Assembly: GCF_030717995.2 (NCBI RefSeq)
Contig: NZ_CP157743.1
Span: 3,002,501-3,066,500, forward strand
Reading direction: 5' to 3'
DNA length: 64,000 bases
Source of the DNA: Methylomarinum sp. Ch1-1
Lineage (GTDB): Bacteria > Pseudomonadota > Gammaproteobacteria > Methylococcales > Methylomonadaceae
Position numbers and translations under genes: made by a program. The notes beneath the pieces were generated by a model. It did no database searches. It saw nothing but the letters and a program-made list of their open reading frames with translations, and was not told the origin of the DNA. Positions 2,763-44,551 of this stretch are shown one piece after another (position 1 is the stretch's first letter; every line of letters starts with the position of its first letter).

Positions 2763-2783
2763 ATATTCGATTTGGTCAAACCA

Positions 2784-5103: not shown

Positions 5104-6007
5104 TTGACGTTCCCCCAGGTCAGGTCGAAAGCATTAATCAACTGATTGATTTGCTGCTCCGAATTCTTTCCAGTGACATCGGTTAAATGGGTGTAACGCG
5201 AAGTGGTCAACAGGCTGACATGGCCCAGGATCTGTTGCAGCTCCACCAAATCGACGCCAGCCTCCAGCAGATGTGTGGCATAACTGTGGCGCAGCGAATG
5301 ACAGGAAATCTTTTTTTTAGCCCCATTCCGTTGACGACCGCCGCCATAGTCGTTTGCACGCCGCCTCTATCGAGAGGTGACTCGGCCATGTGCGCTGCCT
5401 TCAATCCCCGTTTGCGGTTGGGAAAGAGCAAGGTGGGATGCCGATGCAGTTTCCAAAAATGCCGCAGAACCTGCAAGGTATTTAAAGGTAACGGAACTAA
5501 GCGATCCTTGTTACCTTTGGCATTACGAATATGCACGCGCAGACGCTCGGCATCGATATCCCCGACTTGCAATCGGAGTCCTTCACCCAATCGCAAACCC
5601 ATACTGTAAAGCGTGAAAAAGAATACCCGGTAGCTCAACTTACGGGTTGATAGAAACAGCTGTTGTGCCTCAGCGATCGTGACAATATCGGGAATACGAA
5701 CTGTCCTGGGCGGCTTGATCAGTGCAATATCCGTCCAGGGCTTGTTCAACACATGCATATAGAAAAACTTCAAACCATACAGATCCAGCTTGACGGCACT
5801 CCAAGACAGACGCTCCAACAATTCACAAAAATAATCCAGCAACTGTTCCTGGGAAAGATCCTCCAGATTGCCATCGAAATAATCACCGATCCGACGGATA
5901 GCGCGTGAATAGGCATCGATAGTTTTTGGCTGCAGACCTTTAAGTTTTAGATGTTTGCAATGCAGAGCATAATAATGGTTGAATTTCGTATTGTTGGGTG
6001 TCTTCAT
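5100..6007 (-). CDS. Tyrosine recombinase of the IS91-type element, needing a -1 frameshift
   Basis: The first frame (6007 down to about 5318) encodes an N-terminal SAM-like core-binding domain and the first half of the catalytic domain, with Arg139 in [11 protein letters not shown] and Lys167 in [13 protein letters not shown]. At a run of eight A (CTA AAA AAA AGA in the zero frame) the reading must slip back one base. The -1 frame then continues [34 protein letters not shown] and ends at the TGA at 5102-5100. The H-x-x-R, H and nucleophilic Tyr are all beyond the slip. Without slippage the product is a 266-aa protein lacking them. The A_AAA_AAA heptamer sits in the correct frame for programmed -1 frameshifting, though an ordinary indel is also possible. 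Confidence 0.8.
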
Positions 6008-6010
6008 GGC

Positions 6011-6081
6011 AGTGTAACCTCAGTGTTAGTGGAGCTTACACAGTACCCTTTTATGAGTAAGAGGAGAAATGAGGTTACACT
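6011..6081. repeat. 12-bp inverted repeat just upstream of the recombinase gene
   Basis: AGTGTAACCTCA (6011-6022) and TGAGGTTACACT (6070-6081) are perfect inverted copies separated by 47 bp, starting 4 bp before the recombinase ATG. A further partial copy TGAGGTTACAT lies at 6258. They may be binding sites for the recombinase or its regulator. Confidence 0.6.
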
Positions 6082-6139
6082 TGATTTTACGATAAAGCGG
6101 GGTTTTCTCCGCGTTAGCGGCTCCGTCCAACAAGCATGA

Positions 6140-7027
6140 TTCAATTGACCCTCTGTCACTAAAACCATCACTAAAATCCCATGAATATACCAGAACCGAA
6201 GCCTTCCGGATCCTATTAACCTGTGCTGGAAAAGTTTACCGTAAGCGGAGCCTTCCCTGAGGTTACATCAGCGCTGACAACGGTAACTGTAGAACGGATA
6301 TCCGTAATATGTCATATTTGTTCTGACCAGCGCCATAGCCGTTATTTTTTACAAAAAATATTATCAATATGGCTATAGAATTCAACTAGATACACCACAC
6401 TATTAATGTTACTTAAGGAACATAATTAATGCGGGATAAAGTAATCTATTAAGAGTTCCCCGTGGAACAAAAGGCATCTGATAATTGGTTTATGCGATGT
6501 AATCAAGCAAATATGGCGTAACAGTCGATCGCTAAGCTATCCCAGACCGCCAGCAATACCGACGCCCTCTTCTAACACTCAGATGAATATAGGTTTGGCG
6601 AACATGATGAATATTCCGCCGAAGCAAAAACTGTTATGGCATTCGCTGTTAACACTTGATGGTCAATGATAAATAGCCGTAGAGGCGTTTGTGGAAGTCT
6701 TGATTGACAACGTTTGGCGGATTCGATGCTTGACGACTCGCCGCACGGCGAATCGGTTTTAGTGGCATCGATTCCCAAAATCTATTATGAGGCGTACATT
6801 GGTTCCCCTGCGCACTCAATGCCTGATTCGCTTGTAAATCCATGCTCTAAGTATCTACGCCGAATACAATCTCTTCGAGCCTCCGCTCGGGCAGCAAGAA
6901 CCGAGTATGCAGCAGGCTTTCGCCCTGAAAAACTTATATTAACACTTTATATATCAGTAGCTTGAATTGTTTAATTAACGTTATTTATGGAATAAATAAT
7001 TAGCCGACAGCAATCCGCAAAGCAACA
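6140..7027. other. Gene-poor interval between the IS91-type element and psd
   Basis: No ORF here shows recognisable protein character. The short reading frames lack ribosome binding sites and resemble no family I know. Visible structure is limited to a partial TGAGGTTACAT repeat at 6258 and an AT-rich imperfect hairpin (ATAGCC...GGCTAT around 6344-6380). It is likely decayed DNA. Confidence 0.5.
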
Positions 7028-7903
7028 TTATGAGATCACCTTACCTATTAATGCTCCCATTTTAACGGCGTTTCCAGAAATCATAGTCGACTCCCACTCA
7101 ACTGCGCCTTTAGCAAACAACAATATAACGGTGGACCCTCTATTAAACCGACCTATTTCTTCACCTTTTTTTGCGCTGGGCGGATTGTAAGGATAGTTCC
7201 ACCGTCGAATTTCGGAGTAACTAGGCGGAGTAACAATACCATCCCAAACCGTTTCAATACTGGAAGAAAAAATAGACCCAACCATAACGAGCGCCATTGG
7301 GCCGGCCTCTGTATCAAAAAAACTCACCACCCGTTCATTTTTAGCATATAGATTGGGCATTGCATTCACGGTAGCTTGATCGAAACTGAATAAACGGCCG
7401 GGAATGTGTACTGTTTCTTGCAAGACGCCATTAAACGGCATATGGATGCGATGATAATCCCTGGGCGACAGATAAATTGTCGTAAACATCCCCTCTTTAA
7501 AATTGTCGGTTCTTTGCTCCTCACCACCAAGCAACGCCGCAACCGTGTAGTTTTTCCCCTTAGCCTGTATGAGCTCACCGTCACTAATTTTACCCGCTTG
7601 ACTGACTGTACCATCGGCGGGAGAAGCTACGCCACACTCAAGTTCTGTGATCGGCCGCGCGCCAGGCTTCAGCTCGCGTGTAAAAAACGAATTGAAACTT
7701 GGATAGCGCTTCAAGTTACGAGAGATGGCTTCCTTTGTATTGACTTTATAACGTTTTCCAAAACGTTTGACCATATAGTCCTTCCAAGCTTCATTCTCAA
7801 GATGAGCCAAAAAACTCAACAAACGGCATACTAAATGATGCGGATAAACGTACTGAAGCGCGATGGTAAGAAAATTTTTGAGGCTAGTGGTGTTAATTGA
7901 CAT
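7028..7903 (-). CDS. psd: Phosphatidylserine decarboxylase
   Basis: The enzyme converts phosphatidylserine to phosphatidylethanolamine at the inner membrane. The proenzyme cleaves itself at a G-S bond, and the Ser becomes a pyruvoyl cofactor. Here the site is RGSTVILLF, G256-S257 counting from the ATG at 7903; the usual Leu before GST is Arg. Other family blocks are SFNSFFTRELKPGARP, SPADGTVSQ, TTIYLSPRDYHRIHMP (with the catalytic His), PNLYAKNERV and SIETVWDGIVTPP. I chose 7903 because MSINTTSLKNFL aligns with known N termini; an ATG at 7954 would add 17 unrelated residues. The 291-aa product lacks the C-terminal tail of the E. coli enzyme. It stands alone. Confidence 0.93.
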   Translation of the reverse strand: MSINTTSLKNFLTIALQYVYPHHLVCRLLSFLAHLENEAWKDYMVKRFGKRYKVNTKEAISRNLKRYPSFNSFFTRELKPGARPITELECGVASPADGTVSQAGKISDGELIQAKGKNYTVAALLGGEEQRTDNFKEGMFTTIYLSPRDYHRIHMPFNGVLQETVHIPGRLFSFDQATVNAMPNLYAKNERVVSFFDTEAGPMALVMVGSIFSSSIETVWDGIVTPPSYSEIRRWNYPYNPPSAKKGEEIGRFNRGSTVILLFAKGAVEWESTMISGNAVKMGALIGKVIS

Positions 7904-8565
7904 AATTCGTGTCCCAAACCCGGGGCCTTTATATTTTGGCTGTCCCCAGGACAAGTCTGTAAATTAGTTGTTGATCAAAGCACTCGGGCGCCAAACCGAT
8001 AGTCGACAGATACGAACTTGATCTCGCGGTGACACAAGGTCTTAACCAATTCATGAACGGCTATTTTTTCACACCCCCACGAGAAAAATTCAGAGATAGA
8101 ACAAAGATTGGAAAGAAATTATTGTCATCCTTTTAGGATTATGACTGAGCAGATAAATGTTAACGATGCTTTGTTATCGCGAAGGTTAAACGTTGTGTCG
8201 ACAATCAATAGTGAATGAATTTGCCTCTTCTATGGTTAATGGTGGCAATCATCTATAGCGGAGGTTCAAATTATTTTTGTAACAAGAATATAGTATATTT
8301 ATACTATTTATTAATAATACCCTATAGGCATGATGAGATATTTTCTATCTCAAGGCACCAATAAACTAAGATAAATACATTAATTATCAGTATCTTAAAT
8401 ATTACTTTTAATCTTATTAATAAAGTCTACTAATTATTCTACATATCCCGCCCTTTAGCGATCTGTCCATCGGCATTAAAATGAACGGATCGGAGCCACG
8501 GTATGAGGGGGCTGTAAAGCCATGTTGCCATCGGTGAGCGTCAGGCAATTCAGAGATGGCATTAT
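7904..8565. other. AT-rich interval upstream of psd without clear genes
   Basis: No supported coding region. It contains the perfect palindrome ATAGTATATTTATACTAT. In 8457-8565 a reverse-strand reading (AISELPDAHRW, then HGFTAPSYRG) looks protein-like but is interrupted, so it may be a gene fragment. Confidence 0.4.
8290..8307. repeat. AT-rich palindrome, copy 2
   Basis: ATAGTATATTTATACTAT, a perfect palindrome with 8-bp arms, preceded by GAAT as in the copies at 804 and 9020. No convincing gene starts directly beside it. Confidence 0.6.
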
Positions 8566-8607
8566 TCAGCGCGTTCTAAAAGCGGTTTTTGACTTCATCT
8601 CAATCAT
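8566..8607 (-). CDS. Possible 13-aa peptide after a strong ribosome binding site
   Basis: TAGGAGGTGAATTTATG gives an ideal Shine-Dalgarno and spacing for MIEMKSKTAFRTR, ending at TGA. It starts 11 bp after the stop of the preceding 62-codon ORF. Downstream, another frame shows the protein-like text noted at 8457-8565, so this may be the N terminus of a frameshifted gene rather than a true peptide. Confidence 0.3.
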   Translation of the reverse strand: MIEMKSKTAFRTR

Positions 8608-8618
8608 AAATTCACCTC

Positions 8619-8807
8619 CTATAAACAATATTTGTGCCTAGGATTAAGATCAATCATATTTCCTAGGTAAAGTGTGTAAAATATCAGGTCTAGCGTGGCT
8701 GCAGACATTAACCATCCGAAGGTGACTGAGTTGATCTCAGTCGAGATGTAAATGACTTTTGCCAAAAGCGGATGAAACCAGTCTTCTTGATAATCCGATA
8801 AAGCCAT
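8619..8807 (-). CDS. Hypothetical 62-aa protein, possibly a gene fragment
   Basis: Begins MALSDYQEDWFHPLL and contains a hydrophobic central part (FGWLMSAATLDLIFYTLYLG) that could span a membrane. I do not recognise the family. Upstream at 8848 a perfect AAAGGAGG ribosome binding site precedes an 8-codon frame (MSFVVKLP, stop), which ends 14 bp before this ATG; that arrangement could be a leader peptide or the broken start of one longer gene. A second strong ribosome binding site follows its stop codon. Two strong translation-start signals argue that this AT-rich stretch was recently coding. Confidence 0.35.
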   Translation of the reverse strand: MALSDYQEDWFHPLLAKVIYISTEINSVTFGWLMSAATLDLIFYTLYLGNMIDLNPRHKYCL

Positions 8808-9019
8808 TAGGCGCCCCAACCCTACGGTAGTTTAACAACAAAACTCATTACACCCTCCTTTCAAATCCTGTTCAGACTTTCAAGCGATTTAGTTTGTTGT
8901 GACTAATACGTTCGCGTAGACCAATAGATTATTGGCCAATACGATACGACTACTGGGCGCAAACTAATACAAAGTGCACAGCATAATGGCAGCCCATCCC
9001 CCTCCCTATAAATAGGAAT

Positions 9020-9037
9020 ATAGTATGTTTATACTAT
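9020..9037. repeat. AT-rich palindrome, copy 3
   Basis: ATAGTATGTTTATACTAT, preceded by GAAT and followed by an A/T-rich tract, matching the copies at 804 and 8290 with one arm mismatch. Confidence 0.6.
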
Positions 9038-9204
9038 ATATTAAATTTTTTTTCGGAAAGCACATAAAAAACCCGACACCTTTGGTGTTCACCATAAATA
9101 GATATCCAGCAGCACTAGAATATAAATATTTTTTTTATATTACAAGTACTTAAATAAGTTTATTAATGTTTTTTATAACCTAAATCGTACTATAAAACAA
9201 AGAC

Positions 9205-9536
9205 CGACAACGGCAGCGCAATATCAAGCGAATCGAGCAAAATCGCAAACGCGCCGGTTTCCCCTTGCTCAAAAGCCTGGAGGAATTCGACTATCGCTTT
9301 CAGGCCACGATCAGCAAACGGGAAGTCAACAGACTGCTGGACTTCGGTTTATCGATAACCGCGATAACGTCGTGTTCACGGACTGCCCTGTGTCGGTAAA
9401 ACCTAGCTTGGCCATCGGCATTGGCCTGAAAGCCATCGACGCCGGCTATAAAGTCAGCTTTAACACCCCGCTGGGCCGGTTTATGCTGGGAGGAGAAAGT
9501 TACCGACTCAAAACAAAACTGATTCAGTCGTCTTAA
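9205..9536 (+). pseudogene. IS21-family IstB helper ATPase remnant
   Basis: The first frame reads RQRQRNIKRIEQNRKRAGFP then LLKSLEEFDYRFQ and EVNRLLDFGF, the N-terminal part of IstB. After a one-base frame change it continues IDNRDNVVFTDCPVSVKPSLAIGIGLKAIDAGYKVSF, where the Walker A motif (normally GxxGxGKTH) is destroyed. An internal deletion then joins directly to a C-terminal IstB-like tail (RFMLGGESYRLK). It is non-functional. No istA is present upstream, so only the right part of an IS21-type element survives. Positions 9537-9843 hold no supported gene. Confidence 0.75.
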
Positions 9537-9843
9537 TCCTACAAAAGTGGCTCAATTCTGTTGGCCATTGACACTAATTGGCTGGTGATAACATCATTAA
9601 TCGACTGGGCGTTACCAAAACCAAAACCCGGCATGATGCTGCAAAGCGGAAAAAACTGAGCAGTTGCCCTCTCTGCTGGCTCCGTTCAATTATTAGACAT
9701 TGAGAGAATCAGCCTTAGAGAAAATAAGGCCAGCTTTAGCAATCAACCAAACACAAGCGCGCCACTACCCCGTGATAGATTTTGGGACATCCCCGTCAAC
9801 CAAAATCGACTCGCTCATGTGATTATCCCCTTTTATTCTCTTT

Positions 9844-10119
9844 TTATCGTGCACGGGTATGGCCAGGACATCCTTCCAATTGATAAATAAAATACCCCTG
9901 TTGCTTGATGCTATCTAAGACATCATCCGGCGCCTGCTGACTATGGCAGAATTGGCATTCTTTACTTGACACCTCAGCTTTCGCTTCGCCAATCGAGGCT
10001 AACCATTTCTTGGCATGCAGAATCGCTTTTTGATCATCTTTCTCGGCCGTAAATACGTCAAAATGCATAATATGCCCGTCACCCGCTTTGACATAAGTAT
10101 CATAAACATGGATTTCCAT
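9844..10119 (-). CDS. DUF2024 family protein
   Basis: This 91-aa protein starts MEIHVYDTYVKAGDGHIMHFDV and ends GYFIYQLEGCPGH, matching the small DUF2024 family of unknown function. A C-x2-C-H motif (CQFCHSQ) and another Cys in the C-terminal EGCPGH are conserved-looking and could bind metal. AGGAG lies 6 bases before the ATG at 10119, which favours it over the ATG at 10122. It is monocistronic. I cannot assign a biochemical role. Confidence 0.8.
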   Translation of the reverse strand: MEIHVYDTYVKAGDGHIMHFDVFTAEKDDQKAILHAKKWLASIGEAKAEVSSKECQFCHSQQAPDDVLDSIKQQGYFIYQLEGCPGHTRAR

Positions 10120-10122
10120 CAT

Positions 10123-10417
10123 AGACTCCTAGATTTGCACTACAAAGAATGAAAGTTTAACTGTGGAACTATGGAAATGACAGGATAAATTTCAACATTT
10201 CGGCATCAACTCAAGAAATTACCGCCTGGATAAAACTTTTTTGTTATCACCGCCACAAACTCTGCCTCGTTGCCACGTCTCACGTTTTTGATACCCTCGG
10301 TAAACAATTGTTCTCCCGATCATTTCCGGGATGCCGGTATATCGTAAGTAACGGAACTCATATCATAGTCAATCAAAGTTCATTGTTGCTTGGTTCAATA
10401 GGCTAAATAGGCATGTG
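10123..10417. other. Intergenic region with a short repeat
   Basis: No gene is visible. Positions 10,250-10,287 (CGCCAC, ACTCTGCCTCGTTGCC, CGTCTC) recur with small changes at about 12,577-12,614, indicating a dispersed repeat remnant. Confidence 0.4.
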
Positions 10418-11961
10418 CTAGGAAACCTCCATTGCATATCCGCCTCGTCGTGGATCGCCGATGCCGAAAAATCCGTCAACCGAACTACTCACCGAATGCG
10501 TCCCGCCAAAAAACAGATTGCGGCTGTGCCAGACTTTGTAGTTAGGATAGTTTTTAAGGAGCAGCGCTATCATATCGTCCTCAAATCCTCCCTCTATACT
10601 GAGCAAGCCGGCCTCATGATGGATCCGAGGATGGGAAACCGCCTGATCCAGCGGCATTTTAAAGTCGATCACGTTGAGCAGGACCTGCAGGATAGCCGTG
10701 CGCAGGCGGTTGGAACCGCCTGAACCCAGAGCGATATGCCGCTTATCCGGAAGCGTCACGATGCAAGGCGCCATCATCGAGGACATACGCTGATTGGCCG
10801 GCCAATGGTGAAAGCCCTTGGGGTTAAGATCTTCTTCGCCGAGCATGTTATTGAGCATGATGCCGGTGCCGGGAACGAACAAACCGCAACCTTCACCATT
10901 GCTGGTAGTCAGGCTGGCGATATTACCCAGACGATCGATCACGCTGATATGTGTGGTGCCCCGTGAACACAATGCCGCGGGTTTGATCTGAGTGCGATAG
11001 GCTTCAACAACTTCCGGATCCAGAACGTGTTCTGCAGGATGCGGTGAATTCTCGCTCAGGTAGGCATCGATACGCGCCTTGTTGGTCATGTCCTGAACCT
11101 GAGCCAATAAATCGAGATAGGGAACCGAGCCATAGCGATAAGCAGACGGGTCGAACGATCGCAGCAATTGCAAGGCAAAAGCGATCAGCGTGCCACCTGA
11201 GCTGGGAGCGGGGTTGGTCAGCACGGCAGCATCACGATAATCGATAGACAACGGTTTTCGTTTGACCAACCGATATTGTTCAAAATCTTCGCCGACAAGA
11301 TGGCCACCCTGTTCGGCGCATAATCGAGTCACGGCGTCAGCGATCTCGCCCTGATAAAAAAACGCTTCGCCTTCCTTAGCCAATACCTCGAGGCAATCCG
11401 CTAAATCCGGCTGATATAATATTTCCCCTTGCTGCAGCAACTGACCTTGCCGGATTTTACTACCTAAAATTTTATGAGTCTCGGGGTACTGCTGATAGAT
11501 GGCCTTGACGACATCGAAGATGTAAGCCTGAAAGGCATTCATCGCTACGCCATTTCGATAGCCGGTTCGGCAAGCACCGTCATAGGCAGAGTTCCGTGCT
11601 CCCGATGAATCGCAAATAGCCCTTTGACCGTACCGGGTGTCGCGATCGAGCCCAAGCCAATATGAAATTCCTGTTGAACTGTACCGAAGTCCGCTGAAAT
11701 CGGGAAAAAGTCCGTTTCTTCGACAGACCGTTTGGATATCGGCGTTTGCACGAAAAAATCATACAAAACACTGTTGCCGTCTGCAGGTCGGGCCAATAAA
11801 AAGCCGCCGCCAGCCAATGAGGACAACACCGGCTCCACCACACAAGCCGCTAAATGCGCCGCAATCACCGCATCAAAAGCATTGCCGCCTTCTGCAAGAA
11901 TGAATCCGGCCGCTTCTGCGGTTTGTTCATGCCCCGCCGCAACTACTCCCTTTTTATTCAT
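10418..11961 (-). pseudogene. ggt: Gamma-glutamyltransferase, broken by a small deletion
   Basis: The N-terminal 138 codons (MNKKGVVAAGHEQTAEAAG, GGNAFDAVIAAHLA, GGGFLL) and the following 374 codons (AYIFDVVKAIYQQYP onward) are consecutive parts of one Ntn-hydrolase. The autoprocessing and nucleophile region RGTTHISVIDRLGN, followed by NGEGCG, and the GIMLNNMLGEEDLNP region are intact. Near 11,540 the reading EPAIEMA meets TAG, and the next frame continues VAMNAFQAY; about 8 bases appear missing. This is a recent single lesion in an otherwise well-kept gene. The family hydrolyses or transfers gamma-glutamyl groups from glutathione. Natural processing occurs at the Thr, far from this break, so the split is not the normal subunit boundary. 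Confidence 0.8.
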
Positions 11962-12081
11962 CTTCTATTGGGCTCCAACGCTTTATCGCTACGAAAAAAC
12001 AGAACAGCGGACGCCTCCTTTTCTCCAATCGAGTCGACCCGTTTTCACCCTGGGTACAACTGGTTGGCGGAATTTGCCAAG

Positions 12082-12390
12082 TTAATCATCTGAATTCACG
12101 AAACTAAAGTCTCCAACTTCTCTTTCAAAGGTGAATTTTGCCGGATTGACAACCAAAATGTCGCCCATCTTCTCAAAGGAGTCATGCGGCTCGGGTATGG
12201 CGGCAAAGGCGGTTAGCGGACTCAAACCAAGGAACACGGCAGCACCGCCTATCATGCTGACAAAGCCTAATGGACGTAAAATTACAACGTCAATCAGAAC
12301 ATTGGCATCTTTGGATGAGGCCGACAAACATGGTGAAACGCCCATCAGAATAAAGGCGATGATGATTGGCTTGAGAATGTTCATATTCAA
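12082..12390 (-). CDS. Small secreted or membrane protein of unknown function
   Basis: The 102-aa protein has an N-terminal signal-like segment (LKPIIIAFILMGVSPCLSA) and a second hydrophobic segment (LGFVSMIGGAAVFLGLSPLTAFAAI), then a polar tail with the phrase PHDSFEKMGDILVVNPAKFTFER. I recall similar short proteins in gammaproteobacteria but know of no function. It lies upstream of, and divergent from, the DUF1840 gene. Confidence 0.6.
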   Translation of the reverse strand: MNMNILKPIIIAFILMGVSPCLSASSKDANVLIDVVILRPLGFVSMIGGAAVFLGLSPLTAFAAIPEPHDSFEKMGDILVVNPAKFTFEREVGDFSFVNSDD

Positions 12391-12647
12391 TTCCGCAATA
12401 ATTAAGTACCTGCATCAGAAAGTAATCAACTTTCATTGACTTGTCCAGCTTGATGACTCACAGTAACCATCATTGATCAGGACTTTGTATGGTCAAATAT
12501 GCATTCGTGGGTGAGGGCGAGCTTCATTTATCGCTTAAGTAAGTGCCATTCGTGTCTGACCCTTTTGCCTATTAGCGCCACCACGGAACTCTGCCTCGTT
12601 GCCCGTCTCGCGTTATAATTTTCAACATTCCCTTAGAGGAGATGATC

Positions 12648-12959
12648 ATGTTAGTAACCTTTTCCTGCTCCGCTTACGCGGATATCACGATGTTCGGTGA
12701 CGTAGCGGTACATTTATTGAGATTGATGGGGCATAGCGGAACGGTGCCCGGGGCTATCCTCGCCGACGATGTCCAAGAGGCGTTAGAGCGTTTAGTCGAT
12801 GCGCTCCAGAAAGAACAGCGATTGCCAGAACCGGATAAGTCTGAGGAGGAGGAAGGCGAACCGGTTATCAGTCTGTCACACCGCGCCCTGCCTTTGATCG
12901 AATTGCTTGAAGCTGCGGCAAAAGCGAAATGCAATGTCATGTGGGACAAAAACAACTGA
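12648..12959 (+). CDS. DUF1840 family protein
   Basis: The 103-aa protein begins MLVTFSCSAYADITMFGDVAVHLL and includes LMGHSGTVPGAILADDV, both diagnostic of DUF1840. GAGGAG lies six bases before the ATG at 12648, which makes this the likely start rather than the ATG at 12642. A central acidic stretch (DKSEEEEGE) separates the N-terminal domain from a C-terminal helix. Function is unknown. It is a single gene. Confidence 0.85.
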   Translation: MLVTFSCSAYADITMFGDVAVHLLRLMGHSGTVPGAILADDVQEALERLVDALQKEQRLPEPDKSEEEEGEPVISLSHRALPLIELLEAAAKAKCNVMWDKNN

Positions 12960-13035
12960 TTCAGGTTTACCTATTGGACATGACCAAGGCCTTACATTTT
13001 ATGACGTTTTCTCTTTTGAAGACCATGCGTATTTT

Positions 13036-13171
13036 GGTCATTTCCTATCGAGTTTGATCCTTTCGCCCACTTTTCGCCCAAATATTTAATTATCCTCTTT
13101 TTGGATAGATTATTGTTACTCTGACCCTAATTATTTGTGGTCATTTCCTATCGAGTCTGACCCTTTCGCCC
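13036..13171. repeat. 33-bp direct repeat
   Basis: GGTCATTTCCTATCGAGT followed by YTGAYCCTTTCGCCC occurs at 13,036-13,068 and 13,139-13,171 with two differences. A diverged form of its second half lies near 12,551. The second copy coincides with the point where the ATPase fragment loses homology. Confidence 0.65.
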
Positions 13172-13344
13172 TTTGTAAAATATCTAAATAGTGCTGTTTT
13201 TCCAGATCCTTTTCTTCCAAGTACCAGAAAAGCATCATTGCTATCTACGTTCTCAGTTACATTCATCTCAACAAAATAGTCAAGAACAGCATCATCTTCT
13301 GCTTCAACTTTGCCGAAATTTGCTATATCTCGTAATCCTTTCAT
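13141..13344 (-). pseudogene. P-loop ATPase, N-terminal stump
   Basis: The reading MKGLRDIANFGKVEAEDDAV followed by AFLVLGRKGSGKTALFRYFT contains a clean Walker A motif (GRKGSGKT) of the kind found at the start of larger ATPases, including several phage-defence proteins. The frame enters the 33-bp repeat at 13,171 and stops at 13,141, with no Walker B or later domain, so only about 55 authentic codons remain. It follows two small genes on the same strand, which suggests the stump of an accessory operon. The identity of the full protein cannot be determined. Confidence 0.55.
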
Positions 13345-13443
13345 AAAAACCTATTCTTAGCCCATTTGTCATAATGTCCAGGGTACTTGAAAACATAACG
13401 CAGAGCGAATCACAGCGTCACCTTGGGCGCAACGTTATATTTG

Positions 13444-13830
13444 CTACTTTAAAAAAACTGCAACACCTAAAAAAACAAATGCAATTAAAAGAAAAGCTAT
13501 TTTTAATACAAAAAACGTAAATGGCGGCTTATCAAGCCAGCCAGGTTTCAAATATTCTCCTTCAATGCTCTGTATTTCTGTCCACAGTTCAACTTCTCTT
13601 TTTCTAATCCACCACCGATGAAGCAAAGCACCAATAAATTTTTGCAGCACATCAGCAATAAAGAAGAAAACAAAACAAGCTAGCGCGACTAAAACATATT
13701 TTGGAAAATTACCATTGCTATCTTTTAATACCCAACATATAGCAGAGCCAGCAAATCCAAGTTTCCGAGAGAATTCATTTAAATCATTTACATAGTCTTT
13801 GTAATGTGACCATGCTTCGGAATTATTCAT
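13444..13830 (-). CDS. Hypothetical membrane protein of 128 aa
   Basis: Two hydrophobic segments (YVLVALACFVFFFIADVL and FFVLKIAFLLIAFVFLGVAV) flank a charged cytosolic or periplasmic loop (WWIRKREVELWTEIQ, EYLKPGWLDKPPF). The ATG follows directly after the stop of the upstream 43-codon ORF, and AAAGGA precedes it, so the two are translationally coupled. I do not recognise the family. Its position between a tiny ORF and an ATPase stump suggests a small accessory operon. Confidence 0.55.
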   Translation of the reverse strand: MNNSEAWSHYKDYVNDLNEFSRKLGFAGSAICWVLKDSNGNFPKYVLVALACFVFFFIADVLQKFIGALLHRWWIRKREVELWTEIQSIEGEYLKPGWLDKPPFTFFVLKIAFLLIAFVFLGVAVFLK

Positions 13831-13962
13831 TTATCCTTTATCCATTTCTACTGGAACAGGATCTAAATCTTTTGGCTGTGGTGAGTTATTATTGTCGGTT
13901 CCTGGATTTCCCGTTGGTATATCAACCGGAATCGGTTGTTGCTCTTTTTCTTCATTTGCCAT
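13831..13962 (-). CDS. Small hydrophilic protein of 43 aa
   Basis: MANEEKEQQPIPVDIP and then a Pro, Asn and Asp-rich tail ending PVPVEMDKG. It is likely unstructured. GGAG lies seven bases before the ATG at 13962. The stop abuts the start of the 128-aa membrane protein. Composition is low complexity and no family is recognised; the good ribosome binding site and coupling are the evidence that it is real. Confidence 0.45.
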   Translation of the reverse strand: MANEEKEQQPIPVDIPTGNPGTDNNNSPQPKDLDPVPVEMDKG

Positions 13963-14122
13963 GTATTTCTCCAAAAATATAACTATTATTATCAGACAAA
14001 TTTTCCCTGATAACCTGATATTGCCGGTATTTTCAGGCAGAATTGCCAACCTATTCCAATATCAGGCCAATTCGCCCTGATAAGCCGATATTTACCGGGA
14101 ACCTGGCCAATATACCTGATAG

Positions 14123-14308
14123 ATTGGCTAGCAGAAGCAACTATCAACTGCATTTGCTTTCGCCGCAGCACGTAGGATGTGCTGAACAAAGTGAAGCGCA
14201 TCGATCGCGACATTGATGCGCTTCGTTCCTCAGCACATCCTACAGGCCCCGTATCAAAATATTGGCTAATTTAAATCAAACCATCAACCGCACTTGCTTT
14301 CGCCGCAG
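14123..14308. repeat. Duplicated nrdJb 3' end flanking a 72-bp hairpin
   Basis: Positions 14,279-14,308, the last codons of nrdJb plus flank, recur at 14,139-14,168 with four differences, and the similarity extends weakly back to ATTGGCTA at 14,123 and 14,262. Between the copies lies the hairpin 14,172-14,243: GTAGGATGTGCTGA/TCAGCACATCCTAC outer stem and GAAGCGCATC/GATGCGCTTC inner stem, a REP or MITE-like palindrome. The first copy still encodes CGESKCS and a stop. Confidence 0.65.
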
Positions 14309-14967
14309 TTCAGACAGGTCATGCAGCCGTCCATCAGCACCATGGCCTTGGTGTTGCATTTGCTGCATAACACCGCCTGCTCGGGGAATTCGCTGTCCTC
14401 GCCATTGGTCGCGCCGTGCTTGGCTTCGAATTCCTTGCGTTTTTCGGCCAGGAATTGTTTCTGGTGATCGGACAATTCATCCGGCTTGATCATGCCGATG
14501 TGCTTCATGTGCGATTCGATCGCATAGCCGATTTCGGCGACCAGCGACGGCATGAACACGCCGCCCTTCTTGAAATAACCGCCTTTCGGGTCGAACACCG
14601 CCTTCAGTTCTTCGACCAGGAAACACACATCGCCGCCCTTGCGGAACACCGCCGAGATGACTCGGGTCAACGCCAGCACCCATTGGAAGTGCTCCATGTT
14701 CTTGGAATTGATAAATACTTCGTAGGGGCGGCGCTCTTCGTGTTCGGTGCCAGCGTTCAAAATCATGTCGTTGATGGTGATATACAAGGCATGTTCCGAT
14801 TGCGGCGTCTTGATTTTATAGGTCGAGCCCAGCAACACTTCCGGCCGCTCGACCTTCTCATGCATGCTCTCAAGCGAGTCTTTTTCCTCGGCAGCGGCCG
14901 CTTCGGCTTTGTTTTCTTCTGTCAGCACCTTGTAGCTGACAATTTTTTTGTTGATTTTGTGTAACAT
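14284..14967 (-). CDS. nrdJb: B12-dependent ribonucleotide reductase, small C-terminal subunit NrdJb
   Basis: This 227-aa protein corresponds to the separate C-terminal chain of split class II ribonucleotide reductases such as Pseudomonas NrdJb. The central TSCPD-like region (LYITINDMILNAGTEHEERRPYEVFIN, here quoted in part: LYITINDMI, RPYEVFINSKN, EHFQWVLALTRVISAVFRKG) is followed by a cysteine-rich tail with CSKCNTKAMV and CMTCLNCGESKCG that probably binds zinc or relays electrons to the active site. It lies 64 bp downstream of nrdJa on the same strand and is surely co-transcribed. A partial duplicate of its 3' end lies just beyond the stop. Confidence 0.9.
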   Translation of the reverse strand: MLHKINKKIVSYKVLTEENKAEAAAAEEKDSLESMHEKVERPEVLLGSTYKIKTPQSEHALYITINDMILNAGTEHEERRPYEVFINSKNMEHFQWVLALTRVISAVFRKGGDVCFLVEELKAVFDPKGGYFKKGGVFMPSLVAEIGYAIESHMKHIGMIKPDELSDHQKQFLAEKRKEFEAKHGATNGEDSEFPEQAVLCSKCNTKAMVLMDGCMTCLNCGESKCG

Positions 14968-37077: not shown

Positions 37078-38397
37078 TTATATTTCTTTTAATAAACGAT
37101 TGCAGTCACTGTGTTCCAGACTGGCGAACCATTCCTCGTTCAATGAGGAAAAACGATCCAACCCCTTGTCTGCCGGCAGACGATTCCTGCCGGCGGTATC
37201 CAAGGCCTTGATCACGTTAAGCACGGTAATTTGATTAATATCATAAGCCGGTTGATAGAGGCTTGAATCATCCTCCCCAGCCTTCAACTCGACGATTAAC
37301 CGGCTATCGAGCAGAATCTGTAAGGTCTTTTGCACGACCGACAGCGGCAGATTCAACCGCGCCGAAATAGCCTCGCTATTCAAGGCCTCGTCGGCCGAGA
37401 CGAAGAGAGTGACGATCAAATGCATCACTTGCAAGGCGATGTTTCTGCGCAGAGCGAGGCTTAAGTCGGAAAACTTTTCGTTATGACAGTAACTGCGATA
37501 ATTTTGAATATAAAAACTAATCTCGCAGCCTAATAACACGACAAACCAGCCCAACTGCAGCCAGATCAAAAATAATGGCAAGGCTGCGAAGCTGCCGTAG
37601 ATGGCGTTATAACTGGACGCTCCCAACTGCAAGCTCAAATAGGCCCACTGCACCCATTGATAGAGCACCCCGGTGACGATGCCGGCGATGGCGGCGGCCT
37701 TCAGTTCGACTTGCCGGTTCGGCATGAACATGAACACGATGGAAAATAAAATCGCCATGATCAGAAACGGCGAGAAGCTTAAGCCATAAAGCACCAACCT
37801 GGCCGCCCATTCCGGCAAATGCATGACCTCCATCAGCCAGGTCACCTGGGTTTTGACGAACACGGTGATACTGCCGGAGGCAATCAACAGCACCGGAGCC
37901 AACAACATGATCGACAAATAATCACTGACCTTTCTCGCCCAGGAGCGATTCAGAGCAATTTTCCAAATATGGTTGAAGGATTCCTCGATATTGCCGATCA
38001 CCTTGATGACTGTCCATAGCAACAGCACGACCCCGATACCGGCCACTACCCCGCCCTTGGTATTAGCCAACATGTTTTCGGCGAATTCGATCAACTGTAT
38101 CATCAAGGCATCCTGTTCCGGCGTCTGTTCCAGCAAACGGTCGCGCAACATTTTTTCGAAGCCGAAACCTTTGGCAATGCCGAATAACATCGCAATCACC
38201 GGTACAATCGACAGCAACGTGTAGAGGGTCAATGCGGAAGCGCGCAGCGGACATAAATCCTTGACAAAGCCCTGGGTCGATAACAAGGTGACTCTTAAGG
38301 TTTTTACCGCCATGACTTCTAGCCGGCCTAGCCTTTCATCGGGCAGCAACCATACCCCTTCTTTTATAAACTCAGTGATTTTGTTTATCATTTCCAC
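37078..38397 (-). CDS. yihY: YihY/BrkB family inner-membrane protein
   Basis: The 439-aa protein has the YihY plan: an amphipathic N terminus, [29 protein letters not shown], six hydrophobic segments to about residue 300, and the motif [23 protein letters not shown]-terminal cytosolic extension of about 130 residues has a winged-helix look ([22 protein letters not shown]). The family was once annotated as ribonuclease BN; its real role is unsettled. It is the first gene of an operon with a small membrane protein and a PilZ protein, which hints at cyclic di-GMP control. It diverges from the histidine kinase gene. Confidence 0.88.
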
Positions 38398-38461: not shown

Positions 38462-41029
38462 ATGCCCGTTAAATCCGAATTGCAAAAATTTTCGACCACA
38501 CTGTTTCTGATCGTATTTGTCGCCATCAGTTATTTTGGCCTCGGCTTGTTGGGTTTACAACTCGCTGTGCCTCCCAGCCAGGCGGGAGCGGTCTGGCCGC
38601 CGGCAGGCATCGCCCTGGCCGCCATCTTGCTTTGCGGTCCACGCATTTGGCCCGGCATTTTCATCGGCAATTTCTGCATCAGCGCCTGGGCCTTCGGCTT
38701 CAATCCGCAATCGGTCATAATCTACCTGGCCACCGGCGCGGGCGCCACGCTGTGCGCCTATGTCGCCTATCTGTTGATACGCCACTATATCGGCATACCC
38801 AATGATTTGATAAAGAACAAAGACATACTCCAGTTCGTGCTGATCGGCGGCCCGCTCAGTTGCCTGATACCGGCGACGATCGGCATCAGCACAATGTTTT
38901 TCACCGGCATCCTCAGCTGGACGGAAATAGCGGCCAACTGGTTCAGTTGGTGGGTAGGCGACACGATCGGCGCACTAATCTTCACCCCCTTGATCCTAAC
39001 TCTGTTTTCTCAGGACAGCCCGGTGTGGAAGCGGCGGCGAGTAATATTGACATTGCCGTTAATCGCCACTTTCGTATTGGTCATCCTATTCTTTTTCTAT
39101 GTGCAAAAACTCGAATATGCCCGCCAACGGGAACAATTTGCCGACCAATCGAACCTCCTCACCAATGCCTTCAGTACACGAGTGCAAAGTCAGTTGAGAA
39201 ACCTGGAAGCTATTCATCGTTTTTTCATCAGCTCGAACGAAATAACGAAACAGGAATTCGACACCTTTACTCATTCGTCACTGGCGCGATTTCCGGAACT
39301 GAAATCGATACGCTGGATAAAGCCCGATGCCGAAAACAAGCTGACAGTGAAATACCAGCTAAAAAAGGCCGGTTTTCCAGCCAATCTCGATACGATTCCG
39401 ACGCCGATACAGTCGCTGTTCGATAACCCTTACTTTTTATCAACCGGCTCAGCCACCTTTCTGAGGCAGTCTGAAAACCTCCTAGACTTGTTCATCCCTG
39501 TCTATCAAAAAACCGGCACGCGGCAAATCAAAACGGCCGGGGTGATTTCGATATCCATATCGGTCCATGAGCTGATATCGGCAATTCTGGAAAACACGCC
39601 ACTCCCACGCCTCAGCCTGGCAATCGTCGATTCCGCCAGCGGCCTCGAGCTTTTTAACAATCTCGGTCAGGCATCGCTGCTGAACGACACTCTCCAACAT
39701 CGTTTGAATATCGCCAACCAAGAATGGCTGCTGTTCTACGGTCTGCAGATCCATATCGACAATCATACGTACTGGGCGATGTGGTGGGTCATCATCAGCG
39801 GCTTATTGTTTACCAGTCTGCTGGGCACCGGCCTGTTGCTGCTGACCGGGCGCTATTTCGAAACGGAGGCGATCGTCACCGAACGCACCGCCGAATTACT
39901 CGCGGCAAAAAACCATGCCGAAGCCGCCAATCAGGCAAAATCACGCTTTATTTCCAATATCAGCCATGAATTGCGTACGCCGTTGAACGGCATACTCGGC
40001 TTCACCCAACTGTTGCAAAAAAAAGCTCAGTTATCGGACGATGACCTTAAACAGATTAATATCATCGACCATTGCGGCAATCATTTATTAAGTCTAATCA
40101 ATGATCTGCTCGACATTTCCAGGATAGAAACCAATAAAATTACGATCCAAAACCGGCCATTCGAGTTAAACGCCTTTCTCGATGACATCGTTTCCATTTT
40201 CAAGCTGAAGGCGGAAAACAAAAACTTATATTTCATGTTCAACAAGCATCATGATCTAACCACGATTAACAGCGATGAAAATCGTTTGCGACAAATCTTG
40301 GTGAACCTGCTCAATAACGCGATCAAATTCACCGATCAAGGCTATGTCAGTTTGTCTGTCGCAAGCGATGCAAACAAACTGATTTTCACCATCGAGGATA
40401 GCGGATGCGGCATTTCCGAGGAAAACCAGAAACTGGTTTTTTCACCGTTTGTACAAATCGATGAACAGGAGTTTTCCAAGGAAGGAGTCGGACTTGGGCT
40501 GGCCATTACCCAAGAACTGATTCGATTGATGGGCGGCACCATCTCCCTGACCAGCCAGCTTAACCGGGGCAGTCGTTTCACGGTCTCGATGCCGATACAG
40601 AATGAAATCGAACAGCAGCAGCCCTCGACAGCCGACCACGCCTCGGCCTTAGGCCTCGCTAAAGATATCAACATTTTGGTTGCCGATGATAATGAAATCA
40701 ATATCCTGCTTTTTTCCCACATGCTCAATGAATTCAACTGTCGTTACGATGTCGCCACCGATGGCGAAGAAGCCTGGCATATGTTACAAAAACATCATTA
40801 CCATCTGGCGCTGATTGATTTGAATATGCCGAAATTATCCGGCTTGCAATTGCTAGGCAAGATCAAAGAGCAAGGCTTTCCGCTGACCACTGTCGCGATC
40901 AGCGCCTATGCAGAAAAAGACATCATCAACAATGCCCTGAATGCCGGCTTCGATCATTATTTGACCAAACCGGTCGACGCCCAAACTTTAAAGAAACTCA
41001 TTTGCAACATAGTAAGCAACCATGAATAA
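38462..41029 (+). CDS. Hybrid sensor histidine kinase with MASE1, CHASE, HisKA, HATPase and receiver domains
   Basis: The 855-aa kinase begins with a MASE1 integral membrane sensor of about eight helices (20-215; [18 protein letters not shown]). A periplasmic CHASE domain follows (about 235-430; [20 protein letters not shown]), then a last helix (440-462), a coiled linker, HisKA with phospho-acceptor H502 in [12 protein letters not shown], and an HATPase with N-box and glycine boxes ([21 protein letters not shown]). The receiver domain has phospho-acceptor D786 in LIDLNMP and acidic pair ADDNE. I chose the ATG at 38462, since earlier codons overlap the divergent yihY promoter. It overlaps the next gene by 8 bp. 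Its ligand is unknown. Confidence 0.93.
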
Positions 41030-41843
41030 AGATAATTTGTTCCCGACCCTGATAATGAACCTGGCAATGATCCTGTTTTGCGGCGAGCTGTCGGCCGCGC
41101 CTTGGCCAGAAATTCAATTACAACGCGATTTAACGCCGTCTTCATTGACAAGCACAACGGTCGAGGTGCCCAAGGACCCGGTTTACCAAACCGCTAAACA
41201 CTACCGGGCTTATCCGCTGAAAGGCATCATCGATGAACTAAGCGCCGATTATGCCGGCGATCTGCAACAAGCGGTGCTAGTGTTTACCGCTATCGACGGT
41301 TATAAGGTTTCGATGGCTTATCCCGACGCCTTGGAGGAGCAAGGCTACCTGGCCTTCCGTGATCTTGACGCCAACGAAAATGATTGGATCGCTTTTAAAT
41401 TTGGCAAGGAAAAGATCACTCCGGCGCCTTATTATTTGGTTTGGAGCAAAGCCGATATCGATAAATGGCGTTACCCTTGGCCTTTTCAATTAAGCCGCAT
41501 CACTTTGCAACCGGCCAGAATTTATTTCGGCAAGGCGGCACCGGTTTCTACAAACGACAAAATCAGCCGGGGGTTTGCCGAATTCAGCCGCTACTGCATA
41601 CGCTGCCATGCCGTCAATGGCAGCGGCGGCAGCGTCGGCCCCGAATTAAATGCGCCTCAAAACGTTAGCGAACGCTATGCCGACAAACAATTAACCGGCT
41701 TGATATTGAACAACCCGGCCTATCGCCCGAACAGTAAAATGCCCGTTTTTGCCGAACTTTTGAACGATGCCCAGGTGAACAGTATCCTGGCCTATCTAAA
41801 AGCGATGAAATCACACAAGCAAGCGGTCAATGAAACTGATTAA
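41022..41843 (+). CDS. Periplasmic monohaem cytochrome c
   Basis: The 273-aa protein has a signal peptide ([19 protein letters not shown]) and an N-terminal beta-rich domain of about 140 residues ([23 protein letters not shown]) reminiscent of a molybdopterin-oxidoreductase-like fold. A C-terminal cytochrome c domain carries CIRCH at 192-196 and a probable axial Met at 240 (SKMPVF). The start lies inside the histidine kinase gene (8-bp overlap) and the end overlaps the next gene by 14 bp, so three different protein classes are translationally coupled. The ccm operon at the window end would mature it. The electron partner is unknown. Confidence 0.85.
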
Positions 41844-42564
41844 CACGGCCCTGGTGCTATCGATATTGACCTCTTCTGCCCATGCCTTCGACTGGAGCAG
41901 CAGCAACATACAATTACTCTATGGCGGCGATTTCGAGCTGGGTGATCGCGACCGAACGACAGTCACGGTCGAGCACGCTCACGGCTGGCAATACGGCAGC
42001 AACTTTTTTTTCGTCGATATGGTCAGCCGCAATGATATCGGCGTCGAAGTTTATGCCGAAGTGTATTCCTATATCAGCCTGAGCAAGGTTAGCGGCAATA
42101 ACATCGGTTTCGGACCGGTCAACGATATTTCGCTGCTGGCGGGCGTCAATATCAGTAACAAACCGGAGCAGGACAACTTCAAGGCCTATCTGGCCGGCGT
42201 CAGCTTCGACCTGAACAATCAGTGGTTCGATTACCTGCAATTGGACGCCGCCGTCTACAAGGATGACAGCGTTTCGGGCAAATATGGTCTGCAATTCACG
42301 CCGGTCTGGAGCCTGCCTTTCAGCATTGCCGGCATCAAAGCCAAGTTCCGCGGGTTTGCCGATTTCAGAACCGGCAATACCAACAACTCCGGCAACGTCC
42401 ATATCCTGGCGCAACCGCAAATGTTGATCGATGTCGGCGACCTGGTCGGCTGGAAAAGCGACAAGTTTTACATTGGCGCCGAATATATGTATTGGTACAA
42501 CAAATTCGGCCTGGACAACGTCGAGGAATCGACGGTGCAAGGCATGATGATTGCCTTCTTCTAA
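41830..42564 (+). CDS. Outer-membrane channel protein, OmpK/Tsx-like (DUF5020)
   Basis: The 244-aa product has a signal peptide ([17 protein letters not shown]) followed by alternating amphipathic strands ending in aromatic Phe (MMIAFF), typical of a beta-barrel. The text FDWSSSNIQLLYGGDFELGD, with FFFVDMV and YIGAEYMYWYNKFG, resembles nucleoside-specific channel (Tsx/OmpK) and DUF5020 proteins. It is the third gene of the kinase-cytochrome-barrel operon with a 14-bp overlap. The substrate is not evident. Confidence 0.75.
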   Translation: MKLINTALVLSILTSSAHAFDWSSSNIQLLYGGDFELGDRDRTTVTVEHAHGWQYGSNFFFVDMVSRNDIGVEVYAEVYSYISLSKVSGNNIGFGPVNDISLLAGVNISNKPEQDNFKAYLAGVSFDLNNQWFDYLQLDAAVYKDDSVSGKYGLQFTPVWSLPFSIAGIKAKFRGFADFRTGNTNNSGNVHILAQPQMLIDVGDLVGWKSDKFYIGAEYMYWYNKFGLDNVEESTVQGMMIAFF

Positions 42565-42650
42565 CCCGTTAGTTTATGCGGCCACGGCTACTATGCTCAG
42601 TTTAGGCATTAGTACGGCGTTTCGGACATGAATTTGAACAGGGACGGTTT

Positions 42651-42762
42651 CAGCAATTCCCGCTTTGGCGTTCAAAAATACTCAAACTGATGATATGGAC
42701 TCCTCTCCACCCTCTAACGGTGTCACAATACACCTACTAACAACTTAAACTGGGAATTGCTG
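42651..42762. mobile_element. 112-bp MITE with perfect 11-bp ends and 9-bp target duplication
   Basis: CAGCAATTCCC at 42,651-42,661 and GGGAATTGCTG at 42,752-42,762 are perfect terminal inverted repeats. They are flanked by GGACGGTTT directly repeated at 42,642-42,650 and 42,763-42,771. The inside is non-coding and AT-rich. It sits 80 bp before proS. The left end plus TTTGGCGTTCAAAAA recurs at 52,257. Confidence 0.8.
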
Positions 42763-42841
42763 GGACGGTTTAAAGAATTACCCGTTTTTTCCGTTAAAAA
42801 GGTAAAATACCCGGTTTTTGACTTATATTTCACAAAACATA

Positions 42842-44551
42842 ATGCGTACTACACAATTTCCTCTCAGCACCGTCAAAGAAATTCCATCCGATGCCGAAAT
42901 TGCCAGCCACAAACTGATGATTCGCGCCGGCCTGATCCGCAAACTGGCCGCCGGACTCTATACCTGGCTGCCGTTGGGCCTACGGGTTTTACGCAAAGTC
43001 GAAAAAATCACCCGCGAAGAAATGGAAAAAGCGGGCGCTCTGGAAGTGCTGATGCCGGCGTTGCAGCCGGCTGAATTATGGCAGGAAACCGGCCGCTGGG
43101 AACAATACGGTCCGGAACTGGCCCGTCTGCAGGATCGCCATGACCGCGACTTCTGCCTGGGACCGACTCACGAGGAAATCATCACCGATCTGGCGCGCAA
43201 TGAACTGAAAAGCTATAAACAGTTGCCGATCACCTATTACCAAATCCAGACCAAGTTTCGCGACGAGATCCGCCCTCGCTTCGGCGTCATGCGTTCGCGC
43301 GAATTCGTCATGAAGGATGCCTATTCATTCCACCTGGATCAAGAATCGCTGCAGCAAACCTATGACGTCATGTATCAGGCCTATAGCAATATTTTCAACC
43401 GCTTCGGTCTGGAATTCCGAGCCGTGATCGCCGATTCCGGCTCGATCGGCGGCGCGGTCTCCCATGAATTCCATGTGCTGGCCGATTCCGGCGAAGACGC
43501 GATCGCCTTTTCCAGCGACAGCGACTACGCCGCCAATATCGAAAAAGCCGAGGCGATCATGCCTATCGGCGATCGCGCCGAACCCGCCCAATCCCTGGAA
43601 AAGGTCGCCACGCCGGAACAACATAGCATCGAAGAAGTCAGCCGCTTCTTTGCGATCACCGCCGAACAATGTCTGAAAACCTTGATCGTCAAAGACGAAG
43701 ACGATGGCCTCGTCGCCCTGCTGGTCAGAGGCGACCATGAGCTGAACGAACTGAAGGCGGAAAAAATCGACGGCATTGTCTCGCCGCTGCAATTCGCCAG
43801 CGACGAGGAAATCATCGCCGCCTGCGGATGCAAACCCGGCTCCATCGGTCCGTTCGGATTGGATTTTCCAATCATCGCCGACCGCAGCGTCACCTTGATG
43901 AGCGACTTTGTTTGCGGCGCCAACGAAGACGGTCAGCATTATAAAGGCGTCAACTGGGAACGCGACTTGGCGCTGCCGGAACGCGTCGAGGATCTACGCA
44001 TCGTCGTCGAAGGCGATCCCAGTCCGGACGGCAAAGGCACGCTGACGATCGCCCGCGGCATCGAAGTCGGCCATATCTTCCAATTGGGCAATAAATACAG
44101 TGAATCGATGAATGCGTCTGTGATCAACGAGGGCGGCAAAAACCAGATCATGATCATGGGCTGTTACGGCATCGGTATTTCCCGCGTCGTCGCCGCCGCC
44201 ATCGAACAGGGTCATGACGACAAGGGCATCATCTGGCCGAATGAACTGGCGCCTTTCCAAGTGGCGCTGTGTCCGATGAACATGCATAAATCCGACCGTC
44301 TCAGGGATACCGCGGAAAAGCTCTATCAGGAGCTGCTCGATGCCGGCATCGATGTGCTGTTTGACGACCGCAAGGTACGCGCCGGCTTCATGTTCTCGGA
44401 CATGGAGTTGATCGGCATCCCCCATCGCATCGTCATCGGCGACCGCGGCCTCGATAACGGCACCGCCGAATACCGGGCTCGCACAGCCAGCGAAAATCAG
44501 GACATCCCATTAACCGACGTCGTCGAGTTTCTTAACAACAAACTCTCGTAA
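42842..44551 (+). CDS. proS: Prolyl-tRNA synthetase
   Basis: The class II enzyme charges tRNA-Pro with proline. The 569-aa chain is the bacterial type with an editing insertion. It begins [19 protein letters not shown], with motif 1 around [17 protein letters not shown]. Motif 2 is [20 protein letters not shown], and the editing (INS) domain spans about residues 220-410 ([19 protein letters not shown]). Motif 3 and the anticodon-binding domain ([35 protein letters not shown]) complete it. I chose the ATG at 42842 over one at 42818 because MRTTQ is the standard N terminus. A MITE lies just upstream. Confidence 0.96.

Follow-up and report, generated by a model that had tools for sequence, protein, structure and literature searches.

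Pterin signalling through PruR proteins is a young field. PruRs are small stand-alone periplasmic proteins of about 170 aa. Their genes occur in two-gene operons whose other member encodes either a GGDEF-EAL regulator (DcpA) or a sensor kinase of the TorS/BaeS-like type (DTB), and the tryptophan of their pocket is mostly conserved (PMC13259868). The PruR authors ask which pterin is sensed and in which oxidation state, and say that they lack evidence for a chemical reaction between the pterin and PruR (PMC13259868). Here we describe a locus of Methylomarinum sp. Ch1-1, lying in the window (the whole stretch of 64,000 nucleotides analysed), in which the gene of a MASE1-containing hybrid histidine kinase (K) is followed by that of a protein joining a PruR-type domain to a mono-haem cytochrome c (C) and by that of an outer-membrane barrel (O). 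The conserved unit is the K-C pair and not the trio. We give an even chance to the reading, made by analogy with PruR, that C is a periplasmic pterin- and/or redox-binding partner setting the activity of K, which would make the pair a variant of PruR-kinase systems.

The first-pass annotation of this DNA had described C as a haem protein, which holds for its cytochrome c half, the only part matched by Pfam (residues 181-262; PF13442, 4.1e-7; PF00034, 5.4e-7); a separate N-terminal PruR-type domain making up about half of the protein had been overlooked. An AlphaFold2 model of C computed with 19 relatives has two domains (pLDDT, the predicted local distance difference test, 84.5). In Foldseek searches of the PDB, PruR structures take ranks 1-6 for the N-terminal half (E 3.5e-4 for 7rkb and 7.2e-4 for 7kou, with the remaining PruR rows above 0.001), and the C-terminal half retrieves cytochromes c6. 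A profile of 36 N-domain sequences run against 177,635 PDB sequences placed three PruR chains at the top, one of them significant (7kom, E 0.0014; 7rkb, 0.13; 7kos, 0.23). With hhalign the same 36 rows aligned to four plasmid-borne PruRs with a probability of 96.8 and E 2.6e-10, and the 15 Methylococcales rows alone with values of 73.1 and 3.1e-5. By fold and profile, the N-terminal domain of C is a PruR-type, SUOX-fold domain without the molybdenum cysteine. C has no second match in its own genome, the single match being itself.

The pocket residues could be placed in register from the profile alignments, with PruR numbers assigned manually on 7kos. The stretch D92-G93-Y94 of the window's C aligns to the N102/Y104 pocket of PruR; D92 stands at the Asn102/Asp site in 36/36 rows and Y94 at the Tyr104 site in 35/36, the other row having Phe. 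Site 155, the counterpart of PruR Trp160, is aromatic in 32 of the 33 rows with a residue there (Phe in 11, Tyr in 13, Trp in 8, and His in one), and Trp153, two residues before it, is kept in all 34 rows with a residue at that position. The domain probably binds a pterin. It is free of cysteine in all 15 Methylococcales rows, and 11 of the full 36 hold one somewhere; the sole cysteines among the 24 invariant columns of the C alignment belong to the haem motif (C192, C195). C carries one CXXCH motif, CIRCH, and an invariant Met240 that is likely the sixth haem ligand; His/Met is the usual arrangement in mono-haem cytochromes c. A search of the PruR literature at the level of titles and abstract openings, a coverage outside which the primary PNAS paper on PruR lies, found no description of a PruR-cytochrome fusion among the entries listed, and the words 'cytochrome', 'fusion', 'CHASE' and 'MASE' are absent from the accessible part of the 2026 review (PMC13259868). 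We propose the fusion as a new form of the PruR-kinase system.

The linkage of C to K was examined by searching 121 genomes of the family for each of K, C and O and mapping 40 neighbourhoods alongside the window. A close C was defined by at least 40% identity to that of the window, which gives 21 genomes; the C search matched 28, and four with distant proteins (G004, G042, G052, G027) and three with the haem half only (G031, G059, G073) were left out. K was taken as all matches down to E 2.1e-73, a cut chosen after viewing the list, which gives 41 genomes (G025 partial). K and C are adjacent in 17 of the 21 close-C genomes, in several genomic contexts, and they stand together in 17 of the 18 genomes that have both. 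A close C occurs in 18/41 genomes with K as against 3/80 others (Fisher p 1e-7, a test that ignores descent). In 13 of the 17 K-C loci, spread over four genera, the two frames share 4-14 bp; in the other four, all of genus g29, about 75-90 bp separate them (start codons of L091, L092 and L096 were set by eye on translations). The trees of C and of K both group by genus, the latter covering the 30 of the 41 K genomes for which loci were available; both have several long branches and unsure deep forks. The sensing circuit linked to periplasmic redox state that the annotation had suggested gains support from this recurrent pairing and from the trees. Its three-gene unit does not survive the survey, since K, C and O stand intact in 4/121 genomes (the window, L091, L092, L093), and a conserved trio is rejected. 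Judged by the refuting condition that the annotation had set, that relatives usually carry the three genes apart, the barrel is mostly separate, and K and C mostly stay side by side where both are present.

The barrel is an optional rider and not part of the core. O is a DUF5020/Tsx-like protein by Pfam (PF16412, 4.4e-16), in keeping with the outer-membrane channel of the annotation, and 10 of 15 aligned O homologues also match Channel_Tsx (best 2.5e-9), which places it in the group of the Tsx nucleoside channels and DUF5020 proteins; it had no match among PDB sequences at E 1. O matches were found in 44/121 genomes, and in 6 of these 44 an intact O lies beside K or C, always at a spacing of -14 to +5 bp (L111 start by eye). 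O remnants lie near K or C in three more genomes (G074, G053, G043). In the last of these, locus L113 holds six similar 148-aa open reading frames scattered over positions 2242-14747, perhaps from an insertion sequence; next to one of these frames K breaks off at 647 aa, and O is present as a fragment only. Where it is present, O may admit nucleoside-like solutes.

Could the pairing reflect shared location and nothing more? On a neutral view, which we consider improbable, K, C and O are functionally unrelated members of an old, eroding neighbourhood of the order YihY-K-C-O-GGDEF/EAL-ProRS. The flanking YihY and ProRS genes are indeed common to several genera, and each member is absent on its own in some of them: C stands alone between YihY and ProRS in L108, K and O occur without C in L111 and L112, K is alone in L115, and O has decayed in the three genomes just named. 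C is further found beside a GGDEF-EAL gene and away from K in L107, and in another operon in L109 and L110. Against neutrality, the K-C pair is also kept, in overlapping frames, outside this neighbourhood: it follows mfnB in L097-L102, and in L091 and L092 its neighbours are FleS/FleR-like (by eye) and major facilitator superfamily genes. In L109 and L110, from two Methylomonas metagenome-assembled genomes, C is followed by a short-chain dehydrogenase/reductase, a nuclease-like protein of 500 aa and a phospholipase-D-like protein of 531 aa (by eye). The reductase of L109 was considered as a pteridine reductase and rejected, having Asp where the motif given for those enzymes, TGXXXRXG (PMC13259868), has Arg (by eye).

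K matches MASE1 (PF05231, 7.6e-23), HisKA (2.2e-21), HATPase_c (4.6e-28) and Response_reg (6.2e-24), and both His502 and the receiver Asp786 are invariant in 18/18 aligned kinases. Its sensor region is flanked by hydrophobic segments at residues 194-212 and 443-461 (hydropathy). The annotation had named a MASE1/CHASE hybrid kinase, of which MASE1 is firm. CHASE is probable: the whole K protein gave no Pfam CHASE match at E 0.1, its sensor part alone matched PF03924 at 2.2e-4 with 21.5 bits against a cut-off of 25, and 7/18 sensor parts, the window's included, matched at E up to 1. An AlphaFold2 model of the sensor (pLDDT 81) is mixed alpha/beta, and Foldseek retrieves CqsR, KinD, PcrK and dCACHE domains with TM-scores of about 0.5; among PDB sequences no convincing solved relative was found (best E 0.95). 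The model thus points to a CHASE/double-PAS-like fold. Among the weaker Foldseek matches is LuxQ, which listens to a periplasmic binding protein. The Pfam table lists no Hpt, DNA-binding or other output domain for K, and its regulator is therefore probably encoded elsewhere.

Two described kinases offer alternatives at this point. In E. coli, apo-TorC inhibits TorS through the periplasmic region of the kinase (PMC8534201, PMC10845959), and K-C shares with TorC/TorS a hybrid kinase with a c-type cytochrome as its partner. On that model the apo-cytochrome would bind the sensor of K and keep it off until haem is attached, and the circuit would report cytochrome maturation. We consider this somewhat more improbable still than neutral linkage. 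The periplasmic domain of TorS is all-helical (PMC8534201), unlike the mixed alpha/beta model of the K sensor; TorC is a pentahaem protein (PMC11727998), whereas C has a single haem and carries a PruR-type domain besides; and TorC/TorS belongs to a reductase operon, whereas the K-C-O unit has no reductase gene. The second alternative is that K is an MxaY-type switch kinase for methanol dehydrogenase. MxaY comes from the same bacterial group, and Methylotuvimicrobium buryatense 5G carries both MxaY (PMC5018670) and a K-C locus (L137). The gene of MxaY (METBUDRAFT_1818) is followed by a response-regulator gene (METBUDRAFT_1817), and MASE1 goes unmentioned in the accessible text (PMC5018670); K is instead followed by C. 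We judge identity of K with MxaY very unlikely, the two being set apart by that published gene neighbourhood only.

Returning to C as the proposed partner of K, a second candidate output lies nearby in related genera. A MASE1-CHASE-like GGDEF-EAL protein is encoded beside C, convergently, in 9/21 loci (L093, L094, L101-L107). GGDEF and EAL motifs are present in 9/9 of these proteins (MASE1, PAS, GGDEF and EAL by Pfam in the three that were run), and in 9/9 the sensor region of K is homologous to them over about residues 7-488, that is, the MASE1 and CHASE-like parts. K-homologous GGDEF-EAL proteins also occur in genomes without C. With a kinase beside C and a GGDEF-EAL protein beside C, the fusion is thus accompanied by both kinds of output known for PruR, but the receptor module is another one. 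For comparison, a PruR fragment used as a tblastn query hit 634 plasmid records, and in four of four loci picked from non-pathogens among these a sensor kinase follows PruR at once or in overlap; the one in L194 is annotated merely as an ATP-binding protein and is a kinase by sequence. In the 121 family genomes a four-row profile gave one weak, partial match to a canonical PruR, and this profile is short-reaching, as the C proteins also escape it.

A further thread connects K to cofactor genes. Among 61 genomes searched for mfnB (PF04476), 27 have K, and distances were measured between match ends. In 9 of the 27, K comes directly after mfnB, in the same orientation and no more than about 100 bp away; in four more it lies within 3.8 kb. 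Presence of mfnB is uninformative, since 59/61 genomes have it; adjacency is the point. The order DUF6513-DUF447-mfnB-K-C is seen in four g15 loci (L097-L100) and in the g23 locus L101, the families having been named by Pfam on L097 only; L102 ends at a contig edge before DUF6513, and the gaps between mfnB and K in L097-L102 are -8 to +6 bp. DUF447 and DUF6513 probably act in pterin synthesis. In M. extorquens, mfnB is part of an 'archaeal-like' cluster that also holds tetrahydromethanopterin genes (PMC8141765).

From these observations we infer pterin binding, redox coupling, contact between C and K, and the output of K along the following lines. As the periplasmic partner protein of K, C would bind a pterin through its N-terminal half, pterins being proposed as the ligand because that domain is PruR-type, and its mono-haem half would report or change the redox state of that ligand or of the electron-transfer chain in the periplasm. 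When in one of its binding or redox states, C would dock on the CHASE-like domain and set the autokinase activity of K, whose phosphate would pass to its own receiver and on to an Hpt domain and a regulator encoded elsewhere. In the related genera with a GGDEF-EAL neighbour, the homologous sensor module means that one input could feed both a phosphorelay and a cyclic di-GMP output, which would parallel the known PruR-DTB and PruR-DcpA pairs. A more specific and rather unlikely version has C as a haem-pterin redox sensor. The covalent haem would exchange electrons with a tetrahydropterin bound to the protein, which may stem from the methanopterin pathway of the methanotroph itself (K often adjoins the genes of that pathway), and K, with the GGDEF-EAL enzyme of sister genera, would read the poise of periplasmic cytochromes fed by methanol oxidation together with one-carbon cofactor supply as one signal.

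Several observations weigh against a PruR-like partnership between C and K. The sequence link of the N-terminal domain is weak; PF00174 matches 10/36 members (E up to 1, best 0.0013) and leaves the window's C unmatched, and the site of PruR Trp160 is Phe (F155) in this protein. The WX7E motif of DcpA/DTB receptors is absent from 16/18 K proteins, the window's included, and the docking mode of PruR with DcpA or DTB therefore cannot be carried over; WX7E alone is an imperfect test, however, as only two of four reference PruR-linked kinases (P0001, P0003) have it at the conserved LW site, by eye. The gene order is reversed, K preceding C here and PruR lying upstream of the kinase in PruR-DTB (4/4 reference loci), and a GGDEF-EAL neighbour is lacking in 12/21 C loci, the window among them. 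The pterin linkage is not local either, with the mfnB of the window genome about 0.41 Mb away, so that this argument rests on relatives, and MfnB makes the furan of methylofuran and not a pterin (PMC8141765). Lastly, K lacks an adjacent C in 24/41 genomes, one of which (G028) has a close C elsewhere, and K can therefore work without C; C lacks an adjacent K in 4/21 genomes and in L133, a close C outside that set.

The distribution of C beyond the family bears on the same question. A wider set of 63 named loci comprises 21 from Methylococcales, 13 of them with K beside C, and 42 that fall outside the order by record title. In tblastn searches that recovered C in 63/63 loci, 42/42 of the latter were free of K-like kinase matches within 1.4 kb of the C gene and none had a MASE1-CHASE match; a kinase core was matched somewhere in 8/42, at the closest 1.4 kb off and on the opposite strand. 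No conserved partner of C was seen in the maps made of these loci, where the neighbours are varied. Relatives with both halves (L148-L191) come from Alphaproteobacteria (Stella), Myxococcota, Dadabacteria, Acidobacteria, Bacteroidia and Elusimicrobia, and viral contigs yielded no relative of C. The C family therefore has a function independent of K, as would be expected if C were itself an electron carrier or a redox enzyme of the periplasm, for example one that oxidises or reduces a small heterocycle, with K regulating the operon or a related pathway and making no contact with C. The layout of a SUOX-like domain with a cytochrome resembles the sulfite dehydrogenase SorAB. We regard such an enzyme as an unlikely account of the methanotroph proteins, if still an appreciable one, since the molybdenum cysteine is lacking, the best fold matches are PruRs, K and C so often share overlapping frames, and the 21 methanotroph C proteins group in a single clade (100/100) in which 17 are kinase-linked and the K-less genes nest inside the kinase-linked group. 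Given that K without C is common and that C occurs elsewhere without such kinases, the unit is best described as the pairing, in methanotrophs, of a kinase with a PruR-type partner, and not as an obligate system.

Since C joins the PruR fold and a c-type haem in one natural protein, its redox partner is built in, and it offers a direct way into the questions raised for PruR. Its association with a sensor kinase, and in a number of genera its position adjoining methylofuran/methanopterin cofactor genes, makes a testable candidate circuit from one-carbon cofactor state to regulation in methanotrophs. Strain 5GB1C, a derivative of M. buryatense 5G, is a laboratory strain in which genetics is established (PMC5018670).

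The coordinates of the locus are collected in Table 1. The gene overlaps of 8 and 14 bp reported in the annotation are exact. The open frame of K reaches back to a TTG at 38261, and the alignment of relatives favours the ATG at 38462. Promoter-like sites (7, compared with 5.2, standard deviation 2.3, in shuffled sequence) and terminator-like sites (4, compared with 6.0) gave no signal above shuffles. Between O and proS, at 42641-42771, lies a 23-nt inverted repeat whose arms are 78% complementary and 80 nt apart; it holds two copies of GGGACGGTTT (expectation 0.12 in the window) and could be a small mobile element or a terminator. The YihY/BrkB protein, a divergent neighbour kept in several genera, has a winged-helix-like tail with a weak Rrf2 match (4.8e-4).

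Table 1. Features of the K-C-O locus and its flanks, in window coordinates unless a contig is named
Feature	Position	Strand	Basis
Window, in genome G000 (4.77 Mb)	C2:3002501-3066500		
YihY/BrkB-type membrane protein, divergent; flank common to several relatives	37078..38397	-	Pfam, locus map
K, hybrid histidine kinase, 855 aa	38462..41029	+	Open reading frame list, Pfam
MASE1 module of K, residues 18-212	38513..39097	+	Pfam PF05231, 7.6e-23
CHASE/double-PAS-like periplasmic sensor of K (predicted), about residues 213-441	39098..39784	+	Hydropathy, PF03924, AlphaFold2, Foldseek
HisKA and HATPase_c of K, residues 492-713	39935..40600	+	Pfam
Receiver of K, residues 738-847	40673..41002	+	Pfam
Overlap of K stop and C start, 8 bp, ATGAATAA	41022..41029	+	
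C, PruR-type domain fused to cytochrome c, 273 aa; probably secreted	41022..41843	+	Signal peptide by eye
PruR-type SUOX-fold domain of C, about residues 27-164	41100..41513	+	Foldseek, profile search, hhalign, column counts
Cytochrome c domain of C, residues 178-265	41553..41816	+	Pfam, alignment, Foldseek
CIRCH haem motif of C	41595-41609	+	
Overlap of C stop and O start, 14 bp	41830..41843	+	
O, DUF5020/Tsx-like outer-membrane barrel, 244 aa; optional member	41830..42564	+	Pfam
Prolyl-tRNA synthetase; other flank common to several relatives	42818..44551	+	Pfam domains; proS name assigned in this analysis

Among described systems, the SHP/DHC cytochrome operons combine c-type cytochromes with a sensor kinase (SK1) and a periplasmic accessory protein (Orf1), as K-C does, but in separate genes and with other cytochromes (PMC2909971). 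Orf1 of the SHP operons (PMC2909971) is a possible PruR, and if it is one, cytochromes and PruR would be linked a second time. PruR-DcpA of Agrobacterium tumefaciens is matched by the loci in which a GGDEF-EAL protein stands beside C, a relation the window does not share, and differs in that the GGDEF-EAL gene is convergent with C and not co-operonic and has a MASE1-CHASE-like sensor. Unlike PruR-DTB, the locus described here has a 273-aa fusion to cytochrome c in place of a small stand-alone PruR, a Phe for Trp160, and a kinase with MASE1 and a CHASE-like sensor in place of the DcpA-type WX7E domain; like it, the locus encodes a SUOX-fold, pterin-type periplasmic domain free of the molybdenum cysteine beside a sensor histidine kinase, which in some PruR-DTB cases is likewise hybrid.

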